From a virus: 20,765 nucleotides of DNA. Each line of letters starts with the position of its first letter. Positions within the stretch are counted from its first letter, which is position 1. The notes beneath the pieces are model-generated. The model was not told the DNA's origin and made no database searches. It worked only from the letters and a program-made list of their open reading frames with translations. A program made the position numbers and the translations under genes. The stretch spans positions 1 through 20,765 of IMG/VR virus record IMGVR_UViG_3300044972_000389; one strand, 5' to 3'. This document shows positions 2,939 to 18,455 of this stretch, in pieces.

Positions 2939-4730
2939 CTGCACCTGGGCCAGGAGCGGCTCCGCCAGCAGGTACAGCACCACCAGGAACCACGGGAACA
3001 GGACCAGCGCCTGCAGGTGCACCAGCACCGTTGGCAGCCATACCAGCAACGTCTTCGCCAGTTTCAATGTCTGATTCTAGAGCACCCGGGGTAATGCCAA
3101 TGCTACGCATGTCTTGCCCTGCGTTGGTTTCTAACTCAGGCTCGTCACGTTCTTCACGCCACATTTCTTCATTTTCTGCAATTTCTTCTTCAGTCAGTCC
3201 CAAGAAACGTTGCAACAAGAAACGCTTGCTCATGTAAGGCAATGCTTCCAACTGTGTAAATGCACCAATACGTGTGGTATCCAGTTCACTTTGACGATAA
3301 CTTGCAAAGTTTTGAGGTGCATTAAACTTCAAATTAAACAGGCTGGAGTCTATGTTAAACCCACGCCATTTCATAAACATCTTGAATTCGTCGTCTAATT
3401 TCTGCACAATCAATGCTTGCAAACGTTCGCAATACTGGTTGAATCTGTACTCTTGAATCAAGGCTGTGCCTACTTTGCCGTCGGTCATTGCACGGTCTGA
3501 ATCGTCTGGTCCAGTGGGCAAATAACTGCTGGGCACACGCAGGCCACGGGCCATTTTGTTGTTGAAATATTTCAAATCATCAATTTCGCCCAGGTTCTGT
3601 CCGCCTTGCAGTGTGTCTACGCTAGATCCACGACCATCTGCACCTTGGGGAAAGAAATAATCTTCGTTTATCGAAAGTGGGTTGTATGACGCATCCATCA
3701 TGTTGTTGCCACCGCCAGTCATGGTGGGAATTCGACGCTGATGCATTTCGTTTTTCACACGTTCCACAAACGCCATGGCCAGGTGTGATGGCATGTTGCC
3801 CACATCAATTTTGAAGATTCTGCGTTCTGGAGCACGGCTCACACGATAGATCAACACAGCATCTTCCAGCAGTTCTTTTTGTTTGAATACCTTGTAGATC
3901 TGTTCTAGTATGCTACGCCCAAATGGCCAGAAAACATCCAGGCCTTCGTTCAGGCTGATGTGTACCACGTGTTTGGCATCCAAGCAAACTTCATTCATGG
4001 CAGTCATAAATCTGCTGTTGCCCACGCCACCACCTGTGCCGCCGTTGGGCATGGTGTAGTTGGCGTTGCCTGATATTGTGCCTGTCACAGGATTGGTCAT
4101 GTAGTCTGTGGTGGTCTTGGCTGCCACAGTCATGTTTTGGAAATTGGGATTGATGTCACGAATCACATACTGTTCAGGACGTTTGCCTTCTGATTCGTTC
4201 ACAATCACACGGGCCACCTTGCTCATGTCCACCCACATCATTTCAAATGTTTCTGGGTCGCGCACAAACAATTGATCGCCATACTTGATGGTGTTGCGGA
4301 ACAGTTTGAATATACGCTGGTCTAACTTGTTCAGCTTGATCCACTGTTGCAACTGTTTCTTGATGATTGACACTTCGTTGTCTGTGGGTTTTTCACGATA
4401 ATCAACTTCAAACGGTGTACCGTTTTGTTCGTTCATTTGTGTGGAGAACTCAGCAATGATGTCTAAGCATGCATTGATCTCTGAGTCCATGTCCATGTTC
4501 TCGTACTGATTGTAGCGTTCGATACGATTGGGGTGTCCGGAGTAGACTTCGGGCAATCTTGACGCATAGTTGCGGAAGATAAAGTCTGCAGGCATACCTG
4601 TGTCTGATCCATCATTTTTGTTGTAGCCAGGAAGTCCATATTGATTCCTGCCTGAGATAGGGCTCATGACACCTGTGGTGTCTGCTACTTTGAAATACTT
4701 GCGCCAGCCGGGTTGTTTGGGTTCTGCCAT
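2934..4730 (-). CDS. 20: Portal vertex protein, T4 gp20-like
   Basis: A 598-residue protein (T4 gp20 is about 520) forming the dodecameric ring at the head vertex through which DNA enters and to which the tail joins. Recognisable portal stretches include the early helix with DSEINACLDIIAEF, the segment KYGDQLFVRDPET, the block SILEQIYKVFKQKELLEDAV followed by YRVSRAPERR, and the later FNQYCERLQALIVQKLDDEFK. The last 35 residues are a Pro/Ala/Gly low-complexity tail that is probably disordered. The gene is followed by small core proteins and protease as in T4. The ATG at 4730 is 17 bases past the tape-measure stop and 7 bases past an AATAAATA late-type box, with no clear Shine-Dalgarno. Confidence 0.93.
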   Translation of the reverse strand: MAEPKQPGWRKYFKVADTTGVMSPISGRNQYGLPGYNKNDGSDTGMPADFIFRNYASRLPEVYSGHPNRIERYNQYENMDMDSEINACLDIIAEFSTQMNEQNGTPFEVDYREKPTDNEVSIIKKQLQQWIKLNKLDQRIFKLFRNTIKYGDQLFVRDPETFEMMWVDMSKVARVIVNESEGKRPEQYVIRDINPNFQNMTVAAKTTTDYMTNPVTGTISGNANYTMPNGGTGGGVGNSRFMTAMNEVCLDAKHVVHISLNEGLDVFWPFGRSILEQIYKVFKQKELLEDAVLIYRVSRAPERRIFKIDVGNMPSHLAMAFVERVKNEMHQRRIPTMTGGGNNMMDASYNPLSINEDYFFPQGADGRGSSVDTLQGGQNLGEIDDLKYFNNKMARGLRVPSSYLPTGPDDSDRAMTDGKVGTALIQEYRFNQYCERLQALIVQKLDDEFKMFMKWRGFNIDSSLFNLKFNAPQNFASYRQSELDTTRIGAFTQLEALPYMSKRFLLQRFLGLTEEEIAENEEMWREERDEPELETNAGQDMRSIGITPGALESDIETGEDVAGMAANGAGAPAGAGPVPVVPGGAVPAGGAAPGPGAV

Positions 4731-4746: not shown

Positions 4747-7176
4747 TCAGTTGCTGGCTACCTGTGCTAATCGCCCACTGGCTTTGGCAGTGACCTGCAT
4801 GCTGCGGCGCATTTCTTCTAACAATCCTACCATTTGTTGTTGCAGTCCTGCATTGCCCTGGCTTTGCATTTGTTCTGCCAGTCGGTTGATACCGGACACC
4901 GCTGACTTGAATTCTTCACCCATGCTGTCTTTTATATTCTGCCCAAGTTGTTCTACTGTTTCTTTGTTGATGTCTAATTTGGGCATGTCGCCCAACAATG
5001 CTGCCTGACTGTCTGCCGATGTGGGCATGGCAAAGTTTTCCATTTTCTGGAGCATTTGTCCTTGGAGATCAATCATTGTTTTTTGCACAGTATCAGTGCT
5101 TGGCATGTCCGAAGACATATCTGCATAGGCTGCAGAAAAATCTTTATTGCCCCCTGACTTAGACGTGAGTTTCATTCCATTGGTAATGCTGTCAATTACC
5201 TTGAGCATTTCGCCTTGAGCATCCATCATTTTCTTTTGTGACTTTTCACCACTGACCATGTTGAACAACTTGGTCAAATCAGTGTTTTCATCTTTGTTGA
5301 GCACACGTTCACCCTTGTGTAACTGTGCAATGATGTCCTTGGGCTCAAACAGCGATCCAATTTCACCTGACGTGCCATGTGCTCTTTGGTTGCGTGGAGG
5401 TGGGAATAATGGGTCGTTCATGCCGGGCCGGCGTGGTGGGGGCGGAGTTTGATCAGGAATAACTATAGGCGGCACTGGTGGCTGGATTACTACCGGCAGG
5501 GGATTTTGTTCACTCCAAGGTGGCAGTTGTCGATTGTCAACTCTAGGATTGTTTGGACCAACAGGACCAGTTCTACTCTCACTCCCGTCAGGATTGGTAC
5601 GTATAAATCTCCGATCCAGACGTTGGCTAGCATTTTCGGGCAAGTTGTCCATCACACCAACGCTTCTTGGACCAAATCTACTAGATTGGCGACCCACAAC
5701 AACACCTTCTCCCAAAGTTTCTCCAATCTTCTTCATTAAATCAAGTATGTCTTTTTGCACAACCATCGAAGCATCTCTTAATATACCGGGCAATCCAGTT
5801 TGTATAAATGCCTGCGATGCCAACATAACTTCGTTCTGGGCTGCACGAAGTTCTGCTTGTTTTCCAACTTGCCCAGTTTTGTCTCCAATTTGAGCTGCTT
5901 GATTTTCTCGGGCCGCAGCAAGATTTTCTTGAAGACCACCGCGATTCAACATGGTTTCAGCCTTGGTCAATGATGAATACATTCCGCCCACGGATTTTCC
6001 AAACATGGCCAGTTCTTCTTGGCTTCTACTACTGCGAGCCATGCCTTTGAGCACTTGATCAAATCCTTTTTCAAACCCTTGTTGATCTCCTTGAAATTTG
6101 CCAGACTTTAATTGTTGTATCAATTGAAACATTTCTGGAGCCAATGACAACAATGCTTTTGATTCAGGAGTAGGTGCGCCACCACTCATCATGTCTTGCA
6201 TACCTTTGAAAACGTCTTCACCTAGATCTTTTGTAAGAGTGGTCAACATCCCCAATTGCTTCATGGTATCACTACCTTCACCAAATTGGCGTCTTATTTT
6301 GTTTTCTGCTGCTAGAAACTTTTCGTTTCTTTGTGCTTCTTGCAAGGCCTGTTGTTGTTGTTTGCGACTGAGTCCAGTCACTTTGGTCAGTGCATCTTGT
6401 TGTAGTATCAATTCATAAGCACTTTTGCCCAACTGGCTGAAATCAGTGATAGTACCTCGACTGATTTTGGCTTGCATTTTGGCATACTCTAATATGGCTT
6501 CGGCCTGTGCGTCTTGGTCCAGTCCCAGTTTGCGAAATGACTCGTTGTAACCAGCCATACTGCGGCCAAGTTCAGCAAATTGTTGACGCCCTTTGAGCAC
6601 CGTACCGCCCATCATAGCCATGGCATCAGCATTTTGTCCGGCCATTGACAAATATTTGTCAAGTTGGGTAACATTCAATCCCAGTTTTTGTATGTCGTTG
6701 AACAGTCCCTCAATGCCGTCTGCACCCACAGCACCACTTTCGGCCAATTGGCTGAATGCCGAATACATGGTGTCTGCTTGCTCTTTTGAAGTTGCGGCCA
6801 AATCCTCAGCAGTTTTTAAAGCATACACACCCAATGCAGTCAATCCAGCGGTCACTGCTTTTACTACAGGACCACCAGGCATCAACAGACTCAGTCCAAC
6901 AGCAAGCGTTGACACTGCATCGGTCATTTTGCTCATTGAATTGTTGAATACTGCGGCGCCCTGTTCGCCACGATACATGGCCTTGGTATAGTCGCCCACA
7001 GCATCAGCCAGATTGCCCATGACGCTGGTGGCCATCTGAACTTTAAATCCAAAGTTTTGTATACCAGTTTGTGCTTCTAACAGTCGTTGACTGGTTTCAG
7101 GCAAAATATACCCAAACCGGCGCATCTGTTCGTTTACTTCTTCTGTGATCCTTGCGAGATTTTCTTCTGGCGTCAT
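4747..7176 (-). CDS. Tail tape-measure-like protein
   Basis: A protein of about 809 residues, counted from the ATG at 7176. That start (MTPEENLARI) is preferred over an in-frame ATG at 7227 because a perfect late promoter box lies between the two. The N-terminal part is helical, with a long hydrophobic segment at about residues 85-122 (LAVGLSLLMPGGPVV, then AVTAGLTALGVYAL), a usual mark of tape-measure proteins. The middle is Gln/Ala-rich coiled coil. Residues about 555-600 are proline-rich, and a GSLFEPKDIIAQLHKGERVL motif follows at about 605-625, a type common near the C-terminus of tail proteins. In T4 the tape measure is gp29 (590 residues). Here it sits next to portal rather than in the hub cluster. 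Tail length control is the inferred role; T4 gp29 homology is not certain by eye. Confidence 0.72.
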   Translation of the reverse strand: MTPEENLARITEEVNEQMRRFGYILPETSQRLLEAQTGIQNFGFKVQMATSVMGNLADAVGDYTKAMYRGEQGAAVFNNSMSKMTDAVSTLAVGLSLLMPGGPVVKAVTAGLTALGVYALKTAEDLAATSKEQADTMYSAFSQLAESGAVGADGIEGLFNDIQKLGLNVTQLDKYLSMAGQNADAMAMMGGTVLKGRQQFAELGRSMAGYNESFRKLGLDQDAQAEAILEYAKMQAKISRGTITDFSQLGKSAYELILQQDALTKVTGLSRKQQQQALQEAQRNEKFLAAENKIRRQFGEGSDTMKQLGMLTTLTKDLGEDVFKGMQDMMSGGAPTPESKALLSLAPEMFQLIQQLKSGKFQGDQQGFEKGFDQVLKGMARSSRSQEELAMFGKSVGGMYSSLTKAETMLNRGGLQENLAAARENQAAQIGDKTGQVGKQAELRAAQNEVMLASQAFIQTGLPGILRDASMVVQKDILDLMKKIGETLGEGVVVGRQSSRFGPRSVGVMDNLPENASQRLDRRFIRTNPDGSESRTGPVGPNNPRVDNRQLPPWSEQNPLPVVIQPPVPPIVIPDQTPPPPRRPGMNDPLFPPPRNQRAHGTSGEIGSLFEPKDIIAQLHKGERVLNKDENTDLTKLFNMVSGEKSQKKMMDAQGEMLKVIDSITNGMKLTSKSGGNKDFSAAYADMSSDMPSTDTVQKTMIDLQGQMLQKMENFAMPTSADSQAALLGDMPKLDINKETVEQLGQNIKDSMGEEFKSAVSGINRLAEQMQSQGNAGLQQQMVGLLEEMRRSMQVTAKASGRLAQVASN

Positions 7177-7201: not shown

Positions 7202-7209
7202 TATTTATA
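7202..7209 (-). promoter_or_regulatory. Late promoter box, perfect TATAAATA, facing left
   Basis: The minus strand reads TATAAATA exactly, 26 bases before the tape-measure ATG at 7176. It also overlaps the untranslated leader of the gp26-like gene on the other strand. Together with the box at 7188-7195 it makes a divergent late promoter pair in 42 bases. Confidence 0.7.
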
Positions 7210-7218
7210 GGTATCAAA

Positions 7219-8061
7219 ATGACCCAAACCTCCAATCCGTTACGACAATTTTTTAGACAACCTGCAATCTATCTAAAATTGCCCAGTGCTGGACGATATT
7301 GGCCAGCAGCCTCGTTGGACTTGCCCGCCAATGGAGAGTTACCGATATATCCCATGACTGCCATTGATGAAATAACATATCGCACACCAGATGCCTTGTT
7401 CAACGGACAAGCAGTGATCACTGTGATACAGAGTTGTGTGCCTGCTATCAAAAATGCCTGGCATGTGCCCAATATTGATCTCAGCCCATTGTTGATAGCC
7501 ATACGCATTGCCAGCCAAGGACACGAAATGGGATTAAATACTGTGTGTCCGTCATGCAGCCATGAAGAAGAATATGCGCTGGATCTACGTACAGTGTTAG
7601 ATCAACTTCGAGTTCCAAATTTTGCCGAAACTGTCAACTATGGCGACTTAGAAATTGTGTTTAAACCAGTCACGTACGAACAACAAAATCAAAGTAGTAT
7701 TGCACAATTTGAGCAACAAAAGATTTTGTCTACGCTGCCAACTTCAGAGTTGCCTGAAGAAGAAAAAATGAGTCGACTGACTCAGGCATTGAAAATCATT
7801 ACTGATCTAACTATAAACATCATATGCCAAAGCATTGCAATTATCAAAACTCCCAGTGCTGCGGTGTCCGACTCGGTACAGATTGAAGAATTTTTAAGAA
7901 ATTGTGAAAGCAAGATCTACAATCAAATACGAGAACATGTGGTGTCTCTAAGACAACAAAGTGATATACCGCCATTGAAAATCAAATGCACCGAGTGTGA
8001 TCACGAGTATGAACAAGCACTAGACTTGGACATTGCAAATTTTTTCGCATCCGCCTCCTAG
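7219..8061 (+). CDS. 26: Baseplate hub / tail-assembly protein, T4 gp26-like, zero-frame product
   Basis: A 280-residue protein from the ATG at 7219, preceded by AGG at suitable spacing. An upstream in-frame ATG at 7087 is rejected because it lies inside the tape-measure gene. The N-terminal half has the look of the T4 baseplate family around gp26: a LPSAGRYW segment, PMTAIDEI, RTPDALFNG, then a helix with AIRIASQG. Two Cys pairs, C110-C113 (CPSC) and C257-C260 (CTEC), each followed by a similar H-E-E/Y-x-A-L-D-L pattern, suggest a zinc-ribbon. T4 gp26 is a baseplate hub component or assembly factor of 208 residues. The coding frame ends at a TAG just after a heptamer AAATTTT, and the -1 frame continues to 8276 with what looks like a gp51-like tail end. 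Confidence 0.72.
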   Translation: MTQTSNPLRQFFRQPAIYLKLPSAGRYWPAASLDLPANGELPIYPMTAIDEITYRTPDALFNGQAVITVIQSCVPAIKNAWHVPNIDLSPLLIAIRIASQGHEMGLNTVCPSCSHEEEYALDLRTVLDQLRVPNFAETVNYGDLEIVFKPVTYEQQNQSSIAQFEQQKILSTLPTSELPEEEKMSRLTQALKIITDLTINIICQSIAIIKTPSAAVSDSVQIEEFLRNCESKIYNQIREHVVSLRQQSDIPPLKIKCTECDHEYEQALDLDIANFFASAS

Positions 8062-8276
8062 TCTCTTCTCCTGAGCAAATCAGTTCATATGTAGACCGCT
8101 TAGATCAGGAGGCTGGACAAATCAGGGCAGAAAGTCTTAGATTGTCTTGGTACATGCGCGGAGGCGCCAGTTATAATGATGTCATGCAAATGAGCGCCGC
8201 AGAACGAAAACTAATCAGCGAACTTGCCAAAGAAAATATTGAGACCACAAAGAAATCTAACTTACCGTATTTTTAA
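7219..8276 (+). CDS. Predicted -1 frameshift fusion of gp26-like and gp51-like frames
   Basis: Zero-frame codons run to the TTT at 8041-8043; after a one-base backward slip on A-AAT-TTT (8037-8043), reading resumes at 8043 and ends with TAA at 8274-8276. This gives a product of about 352 residues, whose last 77 residues come from the second frame. That second frame includes SWYMRGGASYNDVMQMSAAE and IETTKKSNLPYF, which I associate from memory with the small gp51-type hub-assembly proteins of T4-like phages. The second frame has no ATG, GTG or TTG between its upstream stop at 8010-8012 and 8154, and starting at 8154 would lose the segment before YMRGG. The next gene begins right at the TAA. The frameshift is inferred from sequence, not measured. 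Confidence 0.55.
8037..8113 (+). promoter_or_regulatory. Putative -1 frameshift signal: slippery heptamer plus stem
   Basis: AAATTTT at 8037-8043 is a legal X-XXY-YYZ heptamer in the zero frame. Nine bases later a 7-pair GC-rich stem begins, GCCTCCT (8053-8059) with AGGAGGC (8107-8113). A smaller hairpin CTGA-GCAAA-TCAG (8071-8083) nests in its loop. The zero-frame TAG (8059-8061) lies at the base of the stem. The spacing is in the normal range for frameshift stimulators. Confidence 0.6.
8154..8276 (+). CDS. 51: gp51-like small reading frame (alternative stand-alone start)
   Basis: If not made by frameshift, the only standard start in this frame is the ATG at 8154, giving a 40-residue peptide that opens with MRGGASYNDV. 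There is no Shine-Dalgarno at the right spacing for that ATG; the nearest, AGGAGG at 8107-8112, is over 40 bases away and sits ahead of an ATC codon at 8121. T4 gp51 is a catalytic factor in baseplate hub assembly and is far longer than 40 residues, so a stand-alone product from here looks truncated. Kept as a separate entry so the frame is not lost; I prefer the frameshift reading. Confidence 0.3.
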   Translation: MRGGASYNDVMQMSAAERKLISELAKENIETTKKSNLPYF

Positions 8277-9941: not shown

Positions 9942-10370
9942 TTAAATTTTATCTTTGATGTGTGAGCCATGTACACGTACTTGTATATGGCCGTTGTAAT
10001 AATCTGTTGATTCCAATACTCGTCTTGCAAATTGCTCTCGTGCCTCAATGTAACTGCACTCACTCTTGCTTTTGCAATAGTAAAGTATTTCTCTGGAGAA
10101 GTTTTCGGTGCCTAGTGTGATTACGTCTGCGGTTAATTCTGGGCTTGACCCGTAGTACTCACGCCAATCTGAATCGATCTTGGTGCGTATCTTCTTCCGC
10201 TTCTTGATGCCGTTCTTTTGTTTTACAGTTTTGTACGTTGTTTTTGAAAATTTTGCTAATTTTTTGCCTATGTACTTGCGTCCAGATAGATTATTTGTGA
10301 TCTGATAAACAAATCCCACACATTCTTCGGGTAAAGTCTCAACTGGGGTGTCTTGATATTGCCAGGTCAT
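9942..10370 (-). CDS. GIY-YIG-type nuclease, probably a free-standing homing or mobile endonuclease
   Basis: A 142-residue protein whose first 45 residues carry the GIY-YIG signature in variant form: GFVYQITN (FVY in place of GIY), then RKYIGKK with an intact YIG. A Lys-rich stretch follows, then DWREYYGSS and a helix with ECSYIEAREQ that offers the metal-binding glutamate. This organisation is shared by Seg-type homing endonucleases of T4-like phages, though many domesticated relatives exist. There is no clear extra DNA-binding domain after residue 110. It is the last gene of the leftward run, 33 bases behind the dehydrogenase, with a weak ribosome-binding site. It borders the structured spacer; I looked for group I intron core sequences there and saw none. 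Confidence 0.72.
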   Translation of the reverse strand: MTWQYQDTPVETLPEECVGFVYQITNNLSGRKYIGKKLAKFSKTTYKTVKQKNGIKKRKKIRTKIDSDWREYYGSSPELTADVITLGTENFSREILYYCKSKSECSYIEAREQFARRVLESTDYYNGHIQVRVHGSHIKDKI

Positions 10371-10403: not shown

Positions 10404-10988
10404 TTATGCCTTGTGTTCAAAGTTCACGTAGAAAGTTGCCTCTTCTATCACAGTGTTTGGGGATACTGTGGTAACGTATCTTATAAAATTGCTGACGTCT
10501 GTCAATGCTATACCGTTGCCTGTCCATGTAGGGCGACTGCGGCTCAATTCTGTGTCCAGTCGATCAGGAGTGATCAGTGTGGTTCTGAACTGCACTAAAT
10601 TTTGTTTGAATGCCTGTGTGCCTTGGCGACTAGCATGACTCAATGCTGCCTTGGCCACACGATATGTTTCAAATCTGGGTTCGGGTGCCACAAGGTGTTT
10701 TTCTCCTGTGCTGCCGATGTTGAAAATCCAACCTGTTTTACCAGCAGTTCGCCATGCATCGTACACAGCAAAATACAACTGTGATTGCCCAAAGTTGGCC
10801 CACAATTCCTGGGGAGGGCCATCAAATGCATTGTTTACAAACACATCATATTCCAAACTTAACACAGCAAGCTCATGTGTATTGTGGTTAATATCGAACC
10901 CATTGGTGCGACTGGCGCTGTCTGCACCAAACACATCCACTAAGTGTTTGCCTAGTCCTCGATTGCCACCTGTTACTAACATTTTCAT
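10404..10988 (-). CDS. Short-chain dehydrogenase/reductase (SDR)
   Basis: A 194-residue NAD(P)-dependent oxidoreductase of the SDR type. The cofactor motif TGGNRGLG is at residues 6-13, the NNA motif at 52-54, the catalytic serine at 93 (NIGSTGEK) and the catalytic Tyr109-x-x-x-Lys113 pair (YRVAK), so the active site is complete. It is shorter than typical SDRs (about 250), with the C-terminal substrate lobe reduced, so substrate cannot be guessed. The start at 10988 is chosen because its ATG overlaps the TGA of the radical SAM gene in ATGA; an in-frame ATG at 11003 would overlap more. The tight coupling puts this enzyme in one pathway with the radical SAM genes upstream. Confidence 0.85.
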   Translation of the reverse strand: MKMLVTGGNRGLGKHLVDVFGADSASRTNGFDINHNTHELAVLSLEYDVFVNNAFDGPPQELWANFGQSQLYFAVYDAWRTAGKTGWIFNIGSTGEKHLVAPEPRFETYRVAKAALSHASRQGTQAFKQNLVQFRTTLITPDRLDTELSRSRPTWTGNGIALTDVSNFIRYVTTVSPNTVIEEATFYVNFEHKA

Positions 10989-12079
10989 TTTGATTGATCC
11001 CATACTTTTGTAAACTTTTTACCACAGGTCATTGCACATTCAAACAGTCTGTTGCTGTTGTTGAACGATGCTACGAGGTCCTGCCAAAAATCATTGGCAA
11101 ATATTTCCGGTAATGTCTTGTGATGTATATTCAAATTATCTAGTCCATAACGTTCTAAAAATTCACGAACTTGATTTTTACCATCCACTGTGCTCAGTGG
11201 GTTTGCACCAGGTAAGGTGCCATCGCTAAATCTTGCATCATACAAGTTGTGATTGAAAAAATTACAAGGCAATACTGTGCCTTCGGCATTGATTGCCACT
11301 TTGTTGCCCTTCAAGGCATCGCACTGTATGGGTGTGGTATCAAAATATTCTTTAATGTTGATGTATTGTTTTTTAAGCTCGGGTAGGTATTGCATACTGC
11401 GATTTCTATACTGCTCTTGCCGCGGTGGTTCCAACACATGATCTGCATTGGCAACTGGCCATGAATCCATTTCAGTCATTGTGGCATGATTTAAAAATCT
11501 ACCAGTCTTGCGTATCAACACATTGTGGAACCCCATAGCCTTGCCGTACTGTTTGACCAAGTCAATTTGATATTCATTATGTTTGAACACAATAAAGTTC
11601 CATTGTGCTCGTCCACCTGCGTTGATAAATGCTTGAGCATTAGCAATAACACTGTTGTATTTTACATTCTTTCTGTACAGATGTAAAGTGTCTGCCAAGC
11701 CGTCTATGCCAAAGTCTATCTGTCCATGGCCATTTATGATGCGGGCCATCTCTGTCCAGTACTCGGGATCATGCACTCCACCATTGGTGTGTATGTACAA
11801 CCACAATGTGGGACTCTTGCGTCTAAAGTCACGCAAGATATCTAAAAAGTCTGGATGCATTATGGGATCACCATAACTGCCGCAAAAAAACACTTGTCGT
11901 AGTCGTTGACACAATTTACTATCAAACGCTTGATCAATAGTTGCACGTGACAAGTGTATGAGTGGCATGTAAGGATTGATACCTGTTCCCAAGTTGTTGC
12001 GAGGGCATTGAGGACAGGCAGCATTACAGTAGGTTGTAATTTCAAGCTGATATTCACAAACACTTTGATAATCAAACAT
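10985..12079 (-). CDS. Radical SAM enzyme with SPASM-like C-terminal cysteines
   Basis: A 364-residue enzyme from the ATG at 12079. The CxxxCxxC cluster motif that binds the 4Fe-4S/SAM centre is C18-C22-C25 (CNAACPQC), followed by FCGSYGDPIMHPDF, a GGEP-like SAM-contact region, and TNGG and DFGIDGL strands of the TIM-type barrel. Beyond residue 250 there are added cysteines (IQCDALKGNKVAINAEG, LPCNFF, and CAMTC near the end) in SPASM-like order, so a second cluster is likely. SPASM proteins often act on peptides or proteins, but some act on small molecules. The start overlaps the previous gene by eight bases. It belongs to the packed run with the B12-type radical SAM enzyme, the unknown protein and the SDR. 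Confidence 0.85.
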   Translation of the reverse strand: MFDYQSVCEYQLEITTYCNAACPQCPRNNLGTGINPYMPLIHLSRATIDQAFDSKLCQRLRQVFFCGSYGDPIMHPDFLDILRDFRRKSPTLWLYIHTNGGVHDPEYWTEMARIINGHGQIDFGIDGLADTLHLYRKNVKYNSVIANAQAFINAGGRAQWNFIVFKHNEYQIDLVKQYGKAMGFHNVLIRKTGRFLNHATMTEMDSWPVANADHVLEPPRQEQYRNRSMQYLPELKKQYINIKEYFDTTPIQCDALKGNKVAINAEGTVLPCNFFNHNLYDARFSDGTLPGANPLSTVDGKNQVREFLERYGLDNLNIHHKTLPEIFANDFWQDLVASFNNSNRLFECAMTCGKKFTKVWDQSK

Positions 12080-12587
12080 CAGGTAAATTCTCAAACACAG
12101 TTTTGATTTCTTGAAGCACCTGATGATTAGTTTTAAAAATAGTATTGCCTAATTGTGGTCCTGGTCGCCTAATGTCAATCAACCATTTCAATGCAGGGGT
12201 TGCAAACTCCAATACCCACGTGCCATTGTGCCCCAAATACAAATTGGGACATATTGAATACGGTTCGTTGTCGGCTTTGTGCATGTACACAGGAAAAAAT
12301 TTCCCCAACCACAATTCACCAGTCAACGGGGTATCGTCTAAATGTATTCCAACTATTTCTACGTGTTTGTCTATAGCAATGTTGCCATCTGAGTTTAACA
12401 CATGATCATGCACAGTTTTGCCATGGTGTGTGATTTTTAATTCGTGATTGCCGTCGTCTAGCGGCACATCAAATTCTAAACTGTCCTGTGCAACGTCATC
12501 ATACAACAACATGTAGTCGTCAATGGTAACCTTGATCAATGGATCCCCTAGTCTTCGTTCTACTGCAAAGTTCAGTTGAATTTTCAA
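12072..12587 (-). CDS. Unknown protein in the radical SAM cluster, TTG start
   Basis: A 171-residue protein with many short beta strands, including KIQLNFAVERRLGDPLIKVT, then LEFDVPLDDGNHELKITHHG, a pattern suggestive of a beta sandwich in the first 90 residues. A second part has LYLGHNGTWVLEF and helices. I recognise no enzyme motif. The start is TTG at 12587, supported by an AGGAG 8 bases upstream (12593-12600 region) and by overlap with the TGA of the preceding gene (TTGA). No ATG is available near there. It is translationally linked to radical SAM genes on both sides, so a carrier, binding or substrate-presenting role in that pathway is plausible but not shown. Confidence 0.7.
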   Translation of the reverse strand: MKIQLNFAVERRLGDPLIKVTIDDYMLLYDDVAQDSLEFDVPLDDGNHELKITHHGKTVHDHVLNSDGNIAIDKHVEIVGIHLDDTPLTGELWLGKFFPVYMHKADNEPYSICPNLYLGHNGTWVLEFATPALKWLIDIRRPGPQLGNTIFKTNHQVLQEIKTVFENLPDV

Positions 12588-14086
12588 TGTACCAACTCCT
12601 GAATTCTAGCCAAGCGTTCTTGATACTTGTCCATCAGCGTTTTGAGTTGATCATCGCCTTTCCAAAATGTGTATCCCAACTGTTCACAATGTTCTTGTAT
12701 TTGTATTCTACGCATGATGCGTTTTTTATAAGTTAACTCAGTATTGGTCTCACATATCCAATTTGCCCCTTGCGGACGCTGATTGTTAATGCCAATTATG
12801 TTCAAAGTTTCTGGATGATCAAACATGGGTGTGCCTTGCTCTATGGTCAGCGTGGTGCCTAAATTTACACCAATGATGGTACCGTCTGCTACAAATCGTT
12901 GATACTTGGTCAGCAGATCCAACGATGCCTGATGGTCTTGTTCGGTCTCTGTGGGAAAGCCAGTGATCATTAAAAAATAAACCTGCATTTTGTTTTTGCT
13001 GTATTGCGCCATGTTGTAGTCAAGATCGTCCATGGTAAAATCTTTGCGCATGTCGGCTAGCACTCGATCACTGCCACTTTCAATACCCAACACCATGGTT
13101 TCTGCACCCGCTCGTGACATGTGTTCAAAATCTACGGGTCGCATGGCACCAGGCTTGCGCACAATGGCATGACTGCTGTAGGCAAAATGTCTATCAGGAA
13201 GATGGTGAGATTCATAATAGTCTATCAATGTTCGGTTAAATTGTCGAAAATCTTTCATACTACCATTGCACAATGCATCGTGAAAGAAGAAATCTCTCAC
13301 ACCGTATTGTTCATAGTAATGAATCATCTCGTTGGCCAATTGCGATCCTGATTTAACTCGGAACCCGCCATGTATAGTAGGAATATCACAAAACACACAT
13401 TTTCTAATGCAGCCTCTGGAACTTTCTATTGGCAGTACACCGTGTTTACTGCCATTCTTGTATGACCTTATATCAAAGTCACTAAAATCCATCACAGGTT
13501 GGTCAGCAATGTTGCTACGTTCAGCAAAAAAATCAGTGTCTATTCCGGCCGCATTGTAGTTGCCTTGTATGATTGCTGGTATAGTAGTTTCAGCCTCGCC
13601 GCGTATCCAATGATCAATCAAGCCGAGTTGCTTGAGGTAATGTGCAAAAGTTGGACGATCTGCAAAACTTCCATTTTCTTCACGTATGAGTCCTTGACCG
13701 CCTATGATAACTTCACATGTAAATTGGATTCTAAATTTTTCTAAAAACTTTTCAGTAAAACGTTGTGCTTGCCAACTGAACACGCTGATCAATAGTTGTT
13801 TGGGCTGATATGCAGAAATCAATTCAATCCAGTGTTGAATGAGCCGATCAAATTCTATTTGAGCAGATGCACTGAGTTGTTTGTTTTTGATAAACAAGTA
13901 CTCATCAATTTCATTCCACAGCACAGGATCACATTGTTGTTGAAATCTTGTGAAGTAATCTAAATTTATATCTAAGCATTTGCTGGTCACATTGTGTTGA
14001 TTGAATAATTGTTTAATGATAGCAGGAGCCGCCGCAGGTCGTACTGCTGCTTTTCGTGGTACTGTTAAAATTATTGCATGGACCAT
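12584..14086 (-). CDS. Radical SAM enzyme with B12-binding-like N-terminal domain
   Basis: A 500-residue protein of the class with an N-terminal Rossmann-like domain and a radical SAM core, as in BchE, MiaB-like and B12-dependent methyltransferases. The core motif is C226-C230-C233 (CIRKCVFC), preceded by ESSRG, a common lead-in. The N-terminal part has VIIGGQG and WIRGEAE, the family's 'GG' and 'GEgE' landmarks. The usual cobalamin ligand motif DxHxxG is not visible, so it may not bind B12. Later parts carry LGIESGSDRVLADMRK and MITGFPTETEQD, typical of the barrel's second half. The start ATG at 14086 lies 5 bases after the gp46 stop, so it is co-transcribed. Substrate is unknown. Confidence 0.88.
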   Translation of the reverse strand: MVHAIILTVPRKAAVRPAAAPAIIKQLFNQHNVTSKCLDINLDYFTRFQQQCDPVLWNEIDEYLFIKNKQLSASAQIEFDRLIQHWIELISAYQPKQLLISVFSWQAQRFTEKFLEKFRIQFTCEVIIGGQGLIREENGSFADRPTFAHYLKQLGLIDHWIRGEAETTIPAIIQGNYNAAGIDTDFFAERSNIADQPVMDFSDFDIRSYKNGSKHGVLPIESSRGCIRKCVFCDIPTIHGGFRVKSGSQLANEMIHYYEQYGVRDFFFHDALCNGSMKDFRQFNRTLIDYYESHHLPDRHFAYSSHAIVRKPGAMRPVDFEHMSRAGAETMVLGIESGSDRVLADMRKDFTMDDLDYNMAQYSKNKMQVYFLMITGFPTETEQDHQASLDLLTKYQRFVADGTIIGVNLGTTLTIEQGTPMFDHPETLNIIGINNQRPQGANWICETNTELTYKKRIMRRIQIQEHCEQLGYTFWKGDDQLKTLMDKYQERLARIQELVH

Positions 14087-14091
14087 AGTTT

Positions 14092-15855
14092 TTAAGCGAT
14101 ATCTACATCCGTGTTGTAACTGGTAAATCCGTTTTCTTTAACTACCTTGAGTATGTTCTCTACACGTCCGGCAAGTTCGTCTCTATGACTCACTAGCCAA
14201 ATACTCTTGTGGCGTTCACGAGTCATCTTCTTCAACAGCGCCAAACTGGCTTCTACGCCTTGTGTATCTAGCCCCGAATCAATCATCTCGTCAATGAACA
14301 AGATGTTGATAGGGCTGTACAAACTTTCCCACACGTCACGAAATGCCCAACTCATACTTAGTATCAACCTATTGCGCTCGCCACGACTCAAGTTATCAAA
14401 GTCCAGTTCACGGCCTAATTCTTCAATGCTTACACTCAAATCGTTTTGGAACTTCACAGTGTGTGGCAATCCAATTCTATCCAAGTACCATGTTAGCCTT
14501 GCATTCAAATAACTCAAGTTCTGATCAATAATTTTCTTGCGAACAAAACTATCTTTGCTTGTGAGCAACTTCAACAAAAACTCTTGATGTTCTTGTACTC
14601 TAATGAGTTCGTTCAAATGATCATAGGTGACAGTTTGCAGGGCTTGATTCTCCATGTCTGAGATTTGATCAGTGTAGGGATCTGTTTCTGCTTGTTTGCT
14701 TTGAATCTGTTGTTGCAATGACTCTAAGGTACTGCGATGTTTGAACGCATCATCTTCGTTGTCATAGAACATGGTGGGAGGTTTGCCCAGCACACCCAGG
14801 TCAGTGTGTGCTGTTTGCAGTTCGGCCAACACGGCTGTGTGTGCTACTGAGTTGGTATCAGCATCTGCTAACTCGCGTTTTTTATCTGCCAGCACCTTGG
14901 TGTGTTTGACGTCATGAAATTCCTGTCCACAAGTGTGGCATGTGTGTGCTTCTAAACTTTCAATCTCTTTCACAAGTTTGGCAATGGTCTTTTCTTCACG
15001 CTGGATATCCAGTTTGGTTCTGCTGATTTGTGTGGCCAGGTCATTGATGTCACGACGGCGTTGATCCCAGGCCGAATGTTGTTTGTGTGCGGCAATTTCT
15101 GCATCAATGTCAATGTTCTGTAAAGATTGCAGTGCGGCGTGTAGTCGGCCAAGGTCTTCTGCATGCTTGGTGGTCCACATGACATGTCTGCGCTTCAAAC
15201 TTTCAATCTGTTCTTCAATGCGTTTGTTGGCTTCTTGCACAGCACGTATTCTAAATTCTTCTTGTGTGATGGCATCCTTGGTACCACGGTTGAGTTCTTT
15301 GATGCGGTCAGCACGTTCACTCAACATGGTGATGCCCAACAACTGCTCAATTATGGTGCGTTGATCGTTGGCCTTCAAACTCAAGAACGGCTCAGTATAT
15401 GTGTTTAATGCCAAGATGTGCTTGAACATGTCATGACTCATGCCAAACACTGATTCAATGGCGTCTTGTGTTTCGCGGCTGTCGCCTTGTGCATCATCTG
15501 TGGCAGTTTGTTGTTCGCTGTCTACATAGAAACGCAACACATTGGGTTTGCGTCCACGTTCAATCTTGTATGTTTTACCATTCACAGCAAAGTCAAGACT
15601 GACCAACATGCCCTTGCCATTGGTTTTGTTTACTAGATTGTCCTTGCGAATGTTGCTCAATGCCTGTCCGTACATGGCATAACTCAGTGCATTGATAATT
15701 GTGGTCTTGCCTGTGCCATTGCGACTGCCGTCGCCACCCAGATCCAAGTTTTCGCCCAGCACTAATGTAAGATCTTGACGGTCAAAGTCAATGCCTTGTG
15801 TGGCGTTGCCCACACTCATAAAGTTTTTAACAGTGAGATTTTTAATTTGGATCAT
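14092..15855 (-). CDS. 46: Recombination endonuclease ATPase subunit, T4 gp46-like (SbcC/Rad50)
   Basis: A 587-residue SMC-type ATPase that works with gp47 to resect DNA ends during phage recombination-dependent replication. Visible: a Walker A in the region of residues 34-52 (GENLDLGG, then SRNGTGKTT), long coiled coils broken by a zinc-hook C306-H-T-C309, an ABC signature with LSRGERNR, and a Walker B at about residues 513-523 (INILFIDEMID). Length is close to T4 gp46 (560). The radical SAM gene 15883-17442 separates it from its partner gp47. It has its own host-type promoter at 15862-15890. The ATG at 15855 comes right after the expected RNA start, with no Shine-Dalgarno, so a leaderless message is possible. 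Confidence 0.95.
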   Translation of the reverse strand: MIQIKNLTVKNFMSVGNATQGIDFDRQDLTLVLGENLDLGGDGSRNGTGKTTIINALSYAMYGQALSNIRKDNLVNKTNGKGMLVSLDFAVNGKTYKIERGRKPNVLRFYVDSEQQTATDDAQGDSRETQDAIESVFGMSHDMFKHILALNTYTEPFLSLKANDQRTIIEQLLGITMLSERADRIKELNRGTKDAITQEEFRIRAVQEANKRIEEQIESLKRRHVMWTTKHAEDLGRLHAALQSLQNIDIDAEIAAHKQHSAWDQRRRDINDLATQISRTKLDIQREEKTIAKLVKEIESLEAHTCHTCGQEFHDVKHTKVLADKKRELADADTNSVAHTAVLAELQTAHTDLGVLGKPPTMFYDNEDDAFKHRSTLESLQQQIQSKQAETDPYTDQISDMENQALQTVTYDHLNELIRVQEHQEFLLKLLTSKDSFVRKKIIDQNLSYLNARLTWYLDRIGLPHTVKFQNDLSVSIEELGRELDFDNLSRGERNRLILSMSWAFRDVWESLYSPINILFIDEMIDSGLDTQGVEASLALLKKMTRERHKSIWLVSHRDELAGRVENILKVVKENGFTSYNTDVDIA

Positions 15856-15861
15856 ATGTAC

Positions 15862-15890
15862 ATTATAAACTTTATTTTGATATTAATCAA
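15862..15890 (-). promoter_or_regulatory. sigma70-type promoter before gp46
   Basis: On the minus strand, TTGATT (15885-15890), a 17-base spacer, then TATAAT (15862-15867). The -10 is perfect and the spacing ideal; the -35 matches 4 of 6. The -35 overlaps the stop region of the radical SAM gene. The start codon lies 6 bases after the -10. Confidence 0.6.
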
Positions 15891-17442
15891 CCAGTGGTAT
15901 AAGATCTGCAAATTGTGGTAATACAGTATGGAAAGACTCGCCTCGATAACGATCTTGATTAAGCATGGTACGTTGAAATTCTACAAGTAAATGAGAACGG
16001 TCTTCTAGCCACATATAATCAATAACGTTTTGCCATTCTTTTATTAGAAGATTGGCATCTTGTGAATTCAACCATGTTATATGATTTTTTATAATTGCTT
16101 CTAGTCTTTTTTTATGATGGGATGGAACAACCTGCACAGAAAAAAAACCTTCAAATATTTGTTGAGCTATTGAAAATTGATTAATAGAAATTAAATTACG
16201 CTCTGTCCAATTACGTTGTAGTTCTATTAGACTTTCAATGTTTAAAAATCCCACAGTGGAAGTAACTTTAAAGTTTACATGAGGAGATTCGTGTTGTACA
16301 CGAATCAAATTTGATTCAATTGTAGACCAAACTGTTCCGTGTCGTAGATATTCTGCAATTGTTCCGTGAGCATCTAAACTGGCGCCAATGGTGATATCAG
16401 AAAACTTTTTCCATATACTAGTAAAATTGCTTCCTCGAAAATCAAGTTGCATAAAATTCGTATTGTAAACTACACTGAGATCGGTATTTTTAATTTGCAC
16501 CAGCTCATTGATTATGTCAAAGTGTTCAGGGGCTAACAATGGTTCTCCGCCTGCAAAATAGATATGTTCTAAATTAGGTAACAATAACAATAATTCTGAC
16601 ATTACTGTTTTTCGTTGACGGCTATTTAGAGCAGGCCAGTCGACATTGTATATTCCTTGAACTTCTTGTGCAATGGCGCTACTGAGGTGTGGGCCACAAG
16701 ATCTGCATTTGAGATTGCATATTTTGTTAATACGTATATCAAGTGATATTAGTTTATCTTGATCAACAAGTTCGGTAACACTTGGTGTTGGCATTTGATA
16801 CAGTTCGTTGTAATGTAATCTGTGTGATTTTATACCATTTTTTTCTTTAACCCAACAGTGTTGGCATTCTTTTGGGTGTTTGCCAGTTAATAATCCCTGC
16901 CGTAATCTTTGAAAATTTTTATTATTGTAAATATTAGACAATTTATCTTGATCAATGTTACCCAATGGATAGTCTGTGTTTCCATCACAACACGGCAATA
17001 TGTTTCCGTCAGGATTGATATAAAGATGTATCCATGGCATCACACAAAAAGTGTTGCCAAATGTTGGAAATATTGGATGATAGTCGCCTGGAACTATCAC
17101 ATGATTTATAATATTAGAATGATCAGGAGAACTCAACTCTTCTGCAATATTTTTATTGGTAGTGACCACAGTCACAAAACAACTAGTAATGTCTACGACT
17201 GTCAATGCCTTTTGTATAATAGTTGTGTAGTTACCTCGCTGGTCATCGTACTCATAAACGTCACCGCAGTCTTGGACAAATATCAACCGTTCGTGTGATT
17301 CAAAAGAATCTTTATGATGTTGATATAACCAATTGTATAAAATTTTTTCACCGTCTTTGTCAAGTAACGTAGAATAATAAAATGTACCGAGAACATCATA
17401 TTCTTTTTTGAGTTGTTCTACTGCATTGTTTAATTCAATCAT
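15883..17442 (-). CDS. Radical SAM protein with N-terminal twitch domain
   Basis: A 519-residue protein with an unusual domain order: a cysteine-rich twitch/SPASM-like part before the radical SAM core. Residues C133 (FCVMPWIHLYINPDG), C151-C152 (LPCCDG), C193 and C196 (ECQHC) form the auxiliary cluster region; the core motif is C242-C246-C249 (CNLKCRSC), followed by FAGGEPLL, a clear SAM-contact GGEP. This matches the 'N-terminal twitch radical SAM' group that I recall from phages and bacteria, of unknown substrate. Its ATG overlaps the gp47 TGA in ATGA. It interrupts the usual 47-46 neighbourhood and is noticeably richer in A and T than the genes beside it, so it is probably a later insertion. 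Confidence 0.88.
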   Translation of the reverse strand: MIELNNAVEQLKKEYDVLGTFYYSTLLDKDGEKILYNWLYQHHKDSFESHERLIFVQDCGDVYEYDDQRGNYTTIIQKALTVVDITSCFVTVVTTNKNIAEELSSPDHSNIINHVIVPGDYHPIFPTFGNTFCVMPWIHLYINPDGNILPCCDGNTDYPLGNIDQDKLSNIYNNKNFQRLRQGLLTGKHPKECQHCWVKEKNGIKSHRLHYNELYQMPTPSVTELVDQDKLISLDIRINKICNLKCRSCGPHLSSAIAQEVQGIYNVDWPALNSRQRKTVMSELLLLLPNLEHIYFAGGEPLLAPEHFDIINELVQIKNTDLSVVYNTNFMQLDFRGSNFTSIWKKFSDITIGASLDAHGTIAEYLRHGTVWSTIESNLIRVQHESPHVNFKVTSTVGFLNIESLIELQRNWTERNLISINQFSIAQQIFEGFFSVQVVPSHHKKRLEAIIKNHITWLNSQDANLLIKEWQNVIDYMWLEDRSHLLVEFQRTMLNQDRYRGESFHTVLPQFADLIPLVD

Positions 17443-18455
17443 AAGTTTTGATAAATCTGCAACAATAGTTTGTTGTCGTAGAATTCTGATTCAATGTTTG
17501 TTAGTTGGTCAGTGACAATTTGATCCACACTCTCAAACTTGACATCACCGGGTGCAAGATCCACATCCACACCTGAAGTCTTGTTGGGTATCAGGGCCAT
17601 CTCACGCAGACTATAATCTCGAATAAAAGTTTCTTTGATGAAGTTGGCTTCTTCATATGAAATTTCAATATCTAAATTCACACGCACATGCATCTTAGGA
17701 GCCAGCAGCGTGGCTGCATTGTCAATCAAGTCGGCTAACCCGTGTACTCTATATCGGGGCTGATTGGGCCATGCATGAAACTCGGGCTCTCGGCCCCATT
17801 CAAGTATCATCATGCCACGCTCGTCATCGCCGGCATCGGCATAGTTGTGCGGAAAGCAGTTGCCAATGTAGGTGATGTTGTTGGCAGTCTGCCGTTTGTG
17901 AAAATGTCCGGTGAACACCTGATCAAACCCACCAAAGTCTCCACGCTGTACTGTGCCATGATCTGGCATTTGTACCATGGCATTCATGTAGTAGCCAGGC
18001 AGTTCAAAGTGCCCAAACATATATTTACCTTTTAGTTTGGGAATACGCTTGTGGTCATCGCCACATAGCCAAGGAGCAATAACAACGTCACCGTGACTGA
18101 ACCAATCATTGCAAATTTGAACTTTCGGCAAATGTTTGGCCCACTCCACACTTTGAATATCGCGCTTGTCTCGATAATAAAGATCGTGATTGCCAGGAAT
18201 AAAATATACCCGATCAAAGTTGTCATTCATGTGCTCCAAGGCCCGGAGACTGTAACTCAAGGTAACAATATTTAAGCTGGCCCGGTTGTTGTGCCAGTCG
18301 CCAAGAAACATACAGGTCTCGCAACCCTCTTCCTTGGCCTTGGCAGTGGCCCATTTCACAAAGTCCAAACAGTCGTCATTGTGTGTTTGACTGTTAGACT
18401 TCAACCCAAAATGTATGTCTGTGAAGACCGCAGCCTTTTTAAATAGATTAGTCAT
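17439..18455 (-). CDS. 47: Recombination endonuclease nuclease subunit, T4 gp47-like (SbcD/Mre11)
   Basis: A 338-residue metallophosphoesterase, the nuclease partner of gp46. Motifs appear in family order: D13-x-H15 (TDIHFG), GDWHNN, PGNHD, then GHFEL, and the closing TGHFHKR with paired histidines, so the two-metal site is complete. T4 gp47 is 339 residues, nearly identical in length. It follows the late sigma factor 55 as in T4-like genomes. The ATG at 18455 lies 12 bases beyond the gp55 stop with AGG upstream. Its TGA overlaps the start of the inserted radical SAM gene. Function is secure. Confidence 0.95.
   Translation of the reverse strand: MTNLFKKAAVFTDIHFGLKSNSQTHNDDCLDFVKWATAKAKEEGCETCMFLGDWHNNRASLNIVTLSYSLRALEHMNDNFDRVYFIPGNHDLYYRDKRDIQSVEWAKHLPKVQICNDWFSHGDVVIAPWLCGDDHKRIPKLKGKYMFGHFELPGYYMNAMVQMPDHGTVQRGDFGGFDQVFTGHFHKRQTANNITYIGNCFPHNYADAGDDERGMMILEWGREPEFHAWPNQPRYRVHGLADLIDNAATLLAPKMHVRVNLDIEISYEEANFIKETFIRDYSLREMALIPNKTSGVDVDLAPGDVKFESVDQIVTDQLTNIESEFYDNKLLLQIYQNL

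Follow-up and report, generated by a model that had tools for sequence, protein, structure and literature searches.

The window, a virus record of 20,765 bases analyzed here at its full length, very probably carries the tail chaperone gene of a jumbo T4-related phage, in which a -1 slip at T_TTT_TTC would yield a short and a long protein. Comparison with relatives strongly supports a -1 programmed frameshift giving gp26-like and gp26-51-like products. The record contains a single PF12322 gene and a T4-type portal gene.

Gene Layout and Reading Frames

The zero-frame ORF (7219 to 8061, + strand) starts with ATG at 7219, ends with TAG at 8059-8061 (+ strand), and encodes a 280-aa protein with PF12322 and phrog_150 matches, the candidate gp26-like short tail assembly chaperone (TAC-N). 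Its codons up to the stop read GCA AAT TTT TTC GCA TCC GCC TCC TAG. In the -1 frame, no stop interrupts 8013 to 8273, and TAA follows at 8274-8276. After the predicted slip, this frame would supply an extension of 76 aa (TAC-C, 8046 to 8276, + strand), so that 276 zero-frame residues and 76 more (...DLDIANFF followed by RIRLLVSSPEQ...) form a long product of 352 aa. A sequence-only reading of the window had placed the heptamer, the stem arms, and the open -1 frame at coordinates that all agree with the sequence. Its statement that no standard start precedes 8154 is correct for ATG, the first of which lies at 8154, but left out an in-frame TTG at 8142.

Coding Evidence for the -1 Frame

An IMG/VR scan with the fused protein returned 80 loci, of which 79 contain the junction and 78 extend past it, and 47 representatives were chosen at <93% identity. 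Downstream of the zero-frame stop, all 47 representatives kept the -1 frame free of stop codons, and the other two frames held about 5 stops each. Over the same segment, pN/pS was 0.22 in the -1 frame vs 1.23 and 1.91 for the remaining frames. Judged from these alignments, the -1 frame is under purifying selection. In the stretch from the zero-frame stop to ATG 8154, where the values are saturated, pN/pS was still 0.47 in the -1 frame vs 0.96 and 1.63. Synonymous divergence in the zero frame dipped at the junction (pS 0.29 vs ~0.75 upstream), and no -1 frame start codon just past the junction was kept across all representatives, the positions varying widely. Constraint upstream of ATG 8154, the lack of a conserved start, and the synonymous dip together suggest that the junction is the most likely point at which translation enters the -1 frame.

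An independent gp51-like gene, with its own start or reached by reinitiation after the zero-frame stop, would agree with public records, which mostly annotate the second frame as a separate CDS. ATG 8154 is often retained as the Met of WYMRGG, and 121Q, BF, and XbC2 carry TAATG, in which the ATG overlaps the zero-frame stop and some separate initiation is possible. Against this, conservation at the protein level extends upstream of ATG 8154, and FFRxRLL, the first residues of the extension, line up with the corresponding in-frame junction in T4 gp51. Independent initiation would also leave the invariant TTTTTTC and its phase unexplained. The sequence-only reading had proposed that its frameshift would fail if relatives kept the frames apart with a good start on the second; among the relatives, we saw no second gene standing apart with a conserved start codon. 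We therefore rejected an independent start, for which no conserved codon is available, as very improbable, and retained entry by frameshift at the junction.

The same reading had also raised a single-base error at this point. Two frames that join into one conserved protein are what a sequencing or assembly error splitting one gene would leave behind. The arrangement nevertheless recurs in independently assembled sequences, comprising no fewer than 158 metagenomic loci and 18 isolate genomes, and no relative was found with the frames fused by an indel. The probability of such an error is negligible.

Searches of Pfam, PHROGs, and NCBIfam with the window's extension alone gave no significant family; phrog_18291 covers the extension in CBB and 121Q. 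AlphaFold2 predicted the extension as a helical domain (pLDDT 89), with a pLDDT of 84 for the main domain. None of the annotated records examined marks a frameshift site, and most give the extension as a separate short CDS or not at all.

The Slippery Heptamer

The T run, AAATTTTTTC, holds two overlapping X_XXY_YYZ heptamers, A_AAT_TTT (8037 to 8043, + strand) and T_TTT_TTC (8040 to 8046, + strand), in the zero frame shortly ahead of the zero-frame stop. TTTTTTC was present, always in the identical phase, in 79/79 related jumbo-phage contigs containing the junction. All 78 IMG/VR loci extending past the junction continue in the -1 frame, as does the window. The bases ahead of TTTTTTC vary among relatives (AAA, AAG, CAG, ACG, GGA, and others), and the codon ahead of it in the jumbo relatives is AGT, AAT, CGT, or GAT. 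In the representatives, TTT TTC always followed a codon whose third base is T (47/47); Phe codons elsewhere in their genes are 62% TTT and 38% TTC, giving this invariance, which we do not attribute to chance, a naive P of ~1e-46 with kinship ignored.

A second IMG/VR scan, with a cyanophage protein as query, returned 80 further loci. These cyanophage-type contigs carried TTTTTTC in 80/80 cases, again in that phase, with a -1 extension of 60-66 aa, and the preceding Ser was AGT or TCT, ending in T without exception. A scan with Atu_ph07 returned Atu_ph07 itself and nothing else in IMG/VR. Among 13 jumbo isolates, TTTTTTC was found in 12 (Atu_ph07, Phosso, CBB, BF, Vibrio 2.275.O, Munch, GAP32, 121Q, SCTP-2, XbC2, RaK2, and PA5oct), and the 13th, XacN1, has TTTTTTT. 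The hosts of these isolates are Agrobacterium, Sinorhizobium, Pectobacterium, Serratia, Vibrio, Salmonella, Cronobacter, Escherichia, Salicola, Xanthomonas, Klebsiella, and Pseudomonas. Within the Kyanoviridae isolates, S-BM1 and S-RIM12 have TTTTTTC, and HTVC008M, Melnitz-1, and C48C1 have TTTTTTT.

The sequence-only reading had taken A_AAT_TTT as the working site. This heptamer fits X_XXY_YYZ in the window and is common to the window's closest relatives, but its AAA is not kept in most relatives, while TTTTTTC is retained throughout the 79 jumbo-phage and 80 cyanophage-type contigs. The stem also lies 9 nt from A_AAT_TTT vs 6 nt from T_TTT_TTC. Because TTTTTTC is invariant and AAA is variable, T_TTT_TTC was preferred as the most likely slip site, and A_AAT_TTT was rejected as the main heptamer on conservation. 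A_AAT_TTT is improbable as the working heptamer; it may act as a secondary site, and the protein product would be identical either way.

Transcriptional slippage on the T run, in which an added U in some mRNAs joins the frames, would make the same frame change by a one-base insertion, and the longer T runs of HTVC008M, Melnitz, and C48C1 (Kyanoviridae) would suit it. In the window and nearly all relatives, however, the run is six T followed by an invariant C, which is shorter than the runs known to make bacterial polymerase slip. Ribosomal slippage agrees with the constant X_XXY_YYZ phase, with the spacer, and with the stem, and we regard a transcriptional origin as quite improbable.

The Downstream Stem

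A spacer of 6 nt (8047 to 8052, + strand) separates T_TTT_TTC from the 5' arm of a stem, GCCTCCT (8053 to 8059, + strand), which is complementary at 7/7 positions to the 3' arm AGGAGGC (8107 to 8113, + strand). The pairing described in the sequence-only reading was thus confirmed, and its distance of 9 bases was replaced by 6 nt, counted from T_TTT_TTC. This places the candidate stimulatory structure within 5-9 nt of the heptamer; in RaK2-like phages, the structure is weak. Folded from the window alone, the 7-bp stem was not exceptional (z -0.5 to -1.2), so the case for it was built on comparison.

The 5' arm block is nearly invariant. A perfect 7-pair partner for it was found at one of two sites in 40/47 representatives vs an expectation of 4.6 after synonymous codons at family usage were substituted in the 3' region, a comparison that ignores kinship and to which conservation of an E-A dipeptide at either site contributes. 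The 3' arm lies at 8107-8113 in part of the clade and, in a sister part, 21 nt away at the place corresponding to 8128-8134 (+ strand), which is unpaired in the window. None of the 47 representatives pairs 7/7 at both 3' sites in one sequence. Paired changes also occur among the representatives, GGCTCCT with AGGAGTC and, at the alternative site, GCCTCTT with AAGAGGC. Persistence of heptamer and stem in relatives had been suggested as a check on the sequence-only reading; T_TTT_TTC and a partner for the 5' arm did persist, but AAA varied and the 3' arm shifted.

Among the isolates, Atu_ph07 and Phosso have 10-bp stems with 6-nt spacers and loops similar in length (z -5.8 and -3.7, respectively), and stems also begin 6 nt after the heptamer in XacN1 and PA5oct. 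A clear stem was not seen in CBB, BF, Munch, RaK2, and XbC2, where it is weak or absent; therefore, the stem is not universal.

Relation to T4 gp26 and gp51

The zero-frame protein matches PF12322 (T4_baseplate, E 1.2e-14) and phrog_150 (E 1.6e-15). Both families are common to T4 gp26 and T4 gp51, which makes these two proteins paralogues, and it is through them that our protein is homologous to identified tail assembly chaperones. T4 gp26 ends ...LKEFFELL* at the slip point, and T4 gp51 continues in frame. T4 gp51 is thus a full-length gp26 paralogue with a probable counterpart of the extension fused in frame. On this alignment, the zero-frame product corresponds to T4 gp26 and the predicted frameshift product to T4 gp51. 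The short gp26-like and long gp26-51-like products of the sequence-only reading are supported by this comparison, with the correction that gp51 is not merely the second frame.

The Kyanoviridae extension matched the T4 gp51 C-terminus with an hhalign probability of 95.6. For the jumbo extension, the match was moderate (probability 55, E 1.2e-4, one comparison). The PF12322 search found a single gene in each frameshift genome that matched at all (SCTP-2 did not) and two genes each in T4 and RB43. T4 genes 26 and 51, which are in divergent orientation, contain no slip site. In RB43 (3001-4294 of the stretch compared), a gp51-type and a gp26-type gene follow one another on the same strand, whereas the T4 pair is divergent.

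VIA-align placed the protein on the HK97 tail assembly chaperone 2ob9 with Z 5.8 over 101/107 target residues and rmsd 4.3, which is suggestive but ranks 50 among rows of similar Z and falls in the range of common arrangements. Foldseek against the PDB gave no significant match for the main or extension parts, and a PDB sequence search gave no match. Its family membership makes a tail assembly chaperone with short and long forms the most likely identity of the protein.

Two CxxC pairs, at residues 110/113 and 257/260 of the gp26-like protein (7219-8058), are invariant in the family alignment and also present in T4 gp26. These pairs form a possible zinc-binding site.

Neighboring Genes

The gp26-like gene is adjacent to a divergently transcribed tape-measure-like gene (4747 to 7176, - strand, ATG at ~7176). 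Its identity comes from weak similarity: blastp linked its product to the divergent neighbor of the same gene in Phosso (5e-7) and phage BF (2e-3), and in the RaK2 annotation the counterpart is described as similar to a tape measure protein. The T4-late-promoter-like sequence TATAAATA occurs at 7202-7209 and 2931-2938, both on the - strand (2 matches vs 0.42 expected), and the match at 7202-7209 lies ~26 nt upstream of the tape-measure-like gene's ATG.

Elsewhere in the window, three radical-SAM-type genes (10985-12094, 12584-14086, and 15883-17442, - strand), one with a SPASM domain, sit between T4-type replication and structural genes and are unusual phage cargo. A SegE-like GIY-YIG homing endonuclease gene (PF19835, E 2e-32) occupies 9942-10370 (- strand). 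SMC/AAA-type and calcineurin-type protein genes at 14092-15855 and 17439-18455 (- strand) probably encode the gp46 and gp47 recombination subunits.

Proposed Mechanism and Comparison with Known Systems

We propose that ribosomes translating the gp26-like frame would hold one tRNA-Phe in the P site and another in the A site on arriving at T_TTT_TTC, where the stem, its 5' arm 6 nt downstream, would promote slippage of both tRNAs by one base. By analogy with lambda, from which the efficiency of slippage and the roles of the products are drawn, the majority of ribosomes would stop at TAG 8059-8061 and release the 280-aa short protein (TAC-N, T4 gp26 type), and a minority would go on in the -1 frame to 8276, completing the 352-aa long protein (TAC-NC, T4 gp51 type). 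As in lambda G/GT, the long form may recruit tail-tube subunits, and the short form may coat the product of the divergent neighbor, the putative tape measure protein.

Tail-chaperone frameshifts are classical, and the frameshift proposed in the sequence-only reading, which knew of no description for these T4 genes, is of a kind already described. Lambda gpG/gpGT is the conserved example (Xu, Hendrix and Duda 2004; reviewed in PMC5009743), and a 2016 recoding review describes the G-T frameshift as widely conserved, with T4 as the exception (PMC5009743). Vladimirov, Gautam and Davidson 2022 are cited for T4 gp26 and gp51 as tail assembly chaperones (PMC10885494, PMC12846349) and, in the summary given by the PRFect authors, for a short gene accompanied by a longer fusion gene in some T4-like phages. 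PMC12846349 further credits them with poly-T slippery sequences in T4-like phage chaperone genes. No paper linking frameshifting in jumbo phages to tail chaperones or the baseplate hub was found in the literature collection searched. Nor did we find a description of how widespread the frameshift is in jumbo phages, of the invariance of TTTTTTC, of the stem with its movable arm, or of the split between one-gene and two-gene systems, some of which Vladimirov et al. 2022 may cover.

A frameshift would also explain why cyanophage gp51 lacks its first ~200 aa, as reported by Sullivan et al. 2010 (PMC3037559), whose main text is silent on frameshifting. In the jumbo phage and cyanophage records examined, the proteins annotated as 'hypothetical protein' or short 'gp51' would accordingly be corrected to the C-terminal part of a predicted frameshift product.

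The present locus resembles lambda G/GT in having a putative short chaperone, a predicted -1 slip near the 3' end of its gene, a predicted long product with an extra C-terminal domain, and an adjacent tape-measure-like gene. No sequence homology to lambda G/GT was found. The lambda slip heptamer is GGGAAAG, whereas ours is poly-T, and the tape-measure gene is divergent here vs downstream in lambda. Vandenendeviridae have a tail chaperone -1 frameshift at GTTTTT (PMC12846349), which shares with our locus a poly-T slip site at the gene end that is unannotated in public records. These are other phage families, likened by slip site and not by protein homology, and their GTTTTT motif is unlike TTTTTTC.

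Kyanoviridae (S-RIM12, S-BM1, and HTVC008M) come closer, with a TTTTTTC or TTTTTTT heptamer, a -1 extension, and a single PF12322 gene; their extension is shorter and diverged, and the GCCTCCT stem is not in common. T4 gp26 and gp51 belong to the same family as our protein, but T4 and RB43 encode two genes without a slip site where the window has one gene and a predicted frameshift. We lean slightly toward a history in which the T_TTT_TTC frameshift is a common, perhaps ancestral, route to two tail chaperones in T4-related phages, kept in jumbo phages and Kyanoviridae and replaced in T4 and RB43 by the duplicated pair 26/51, with the stem of the jumbo clade under selection and its 3' arm moved by 21 nt between lineages.
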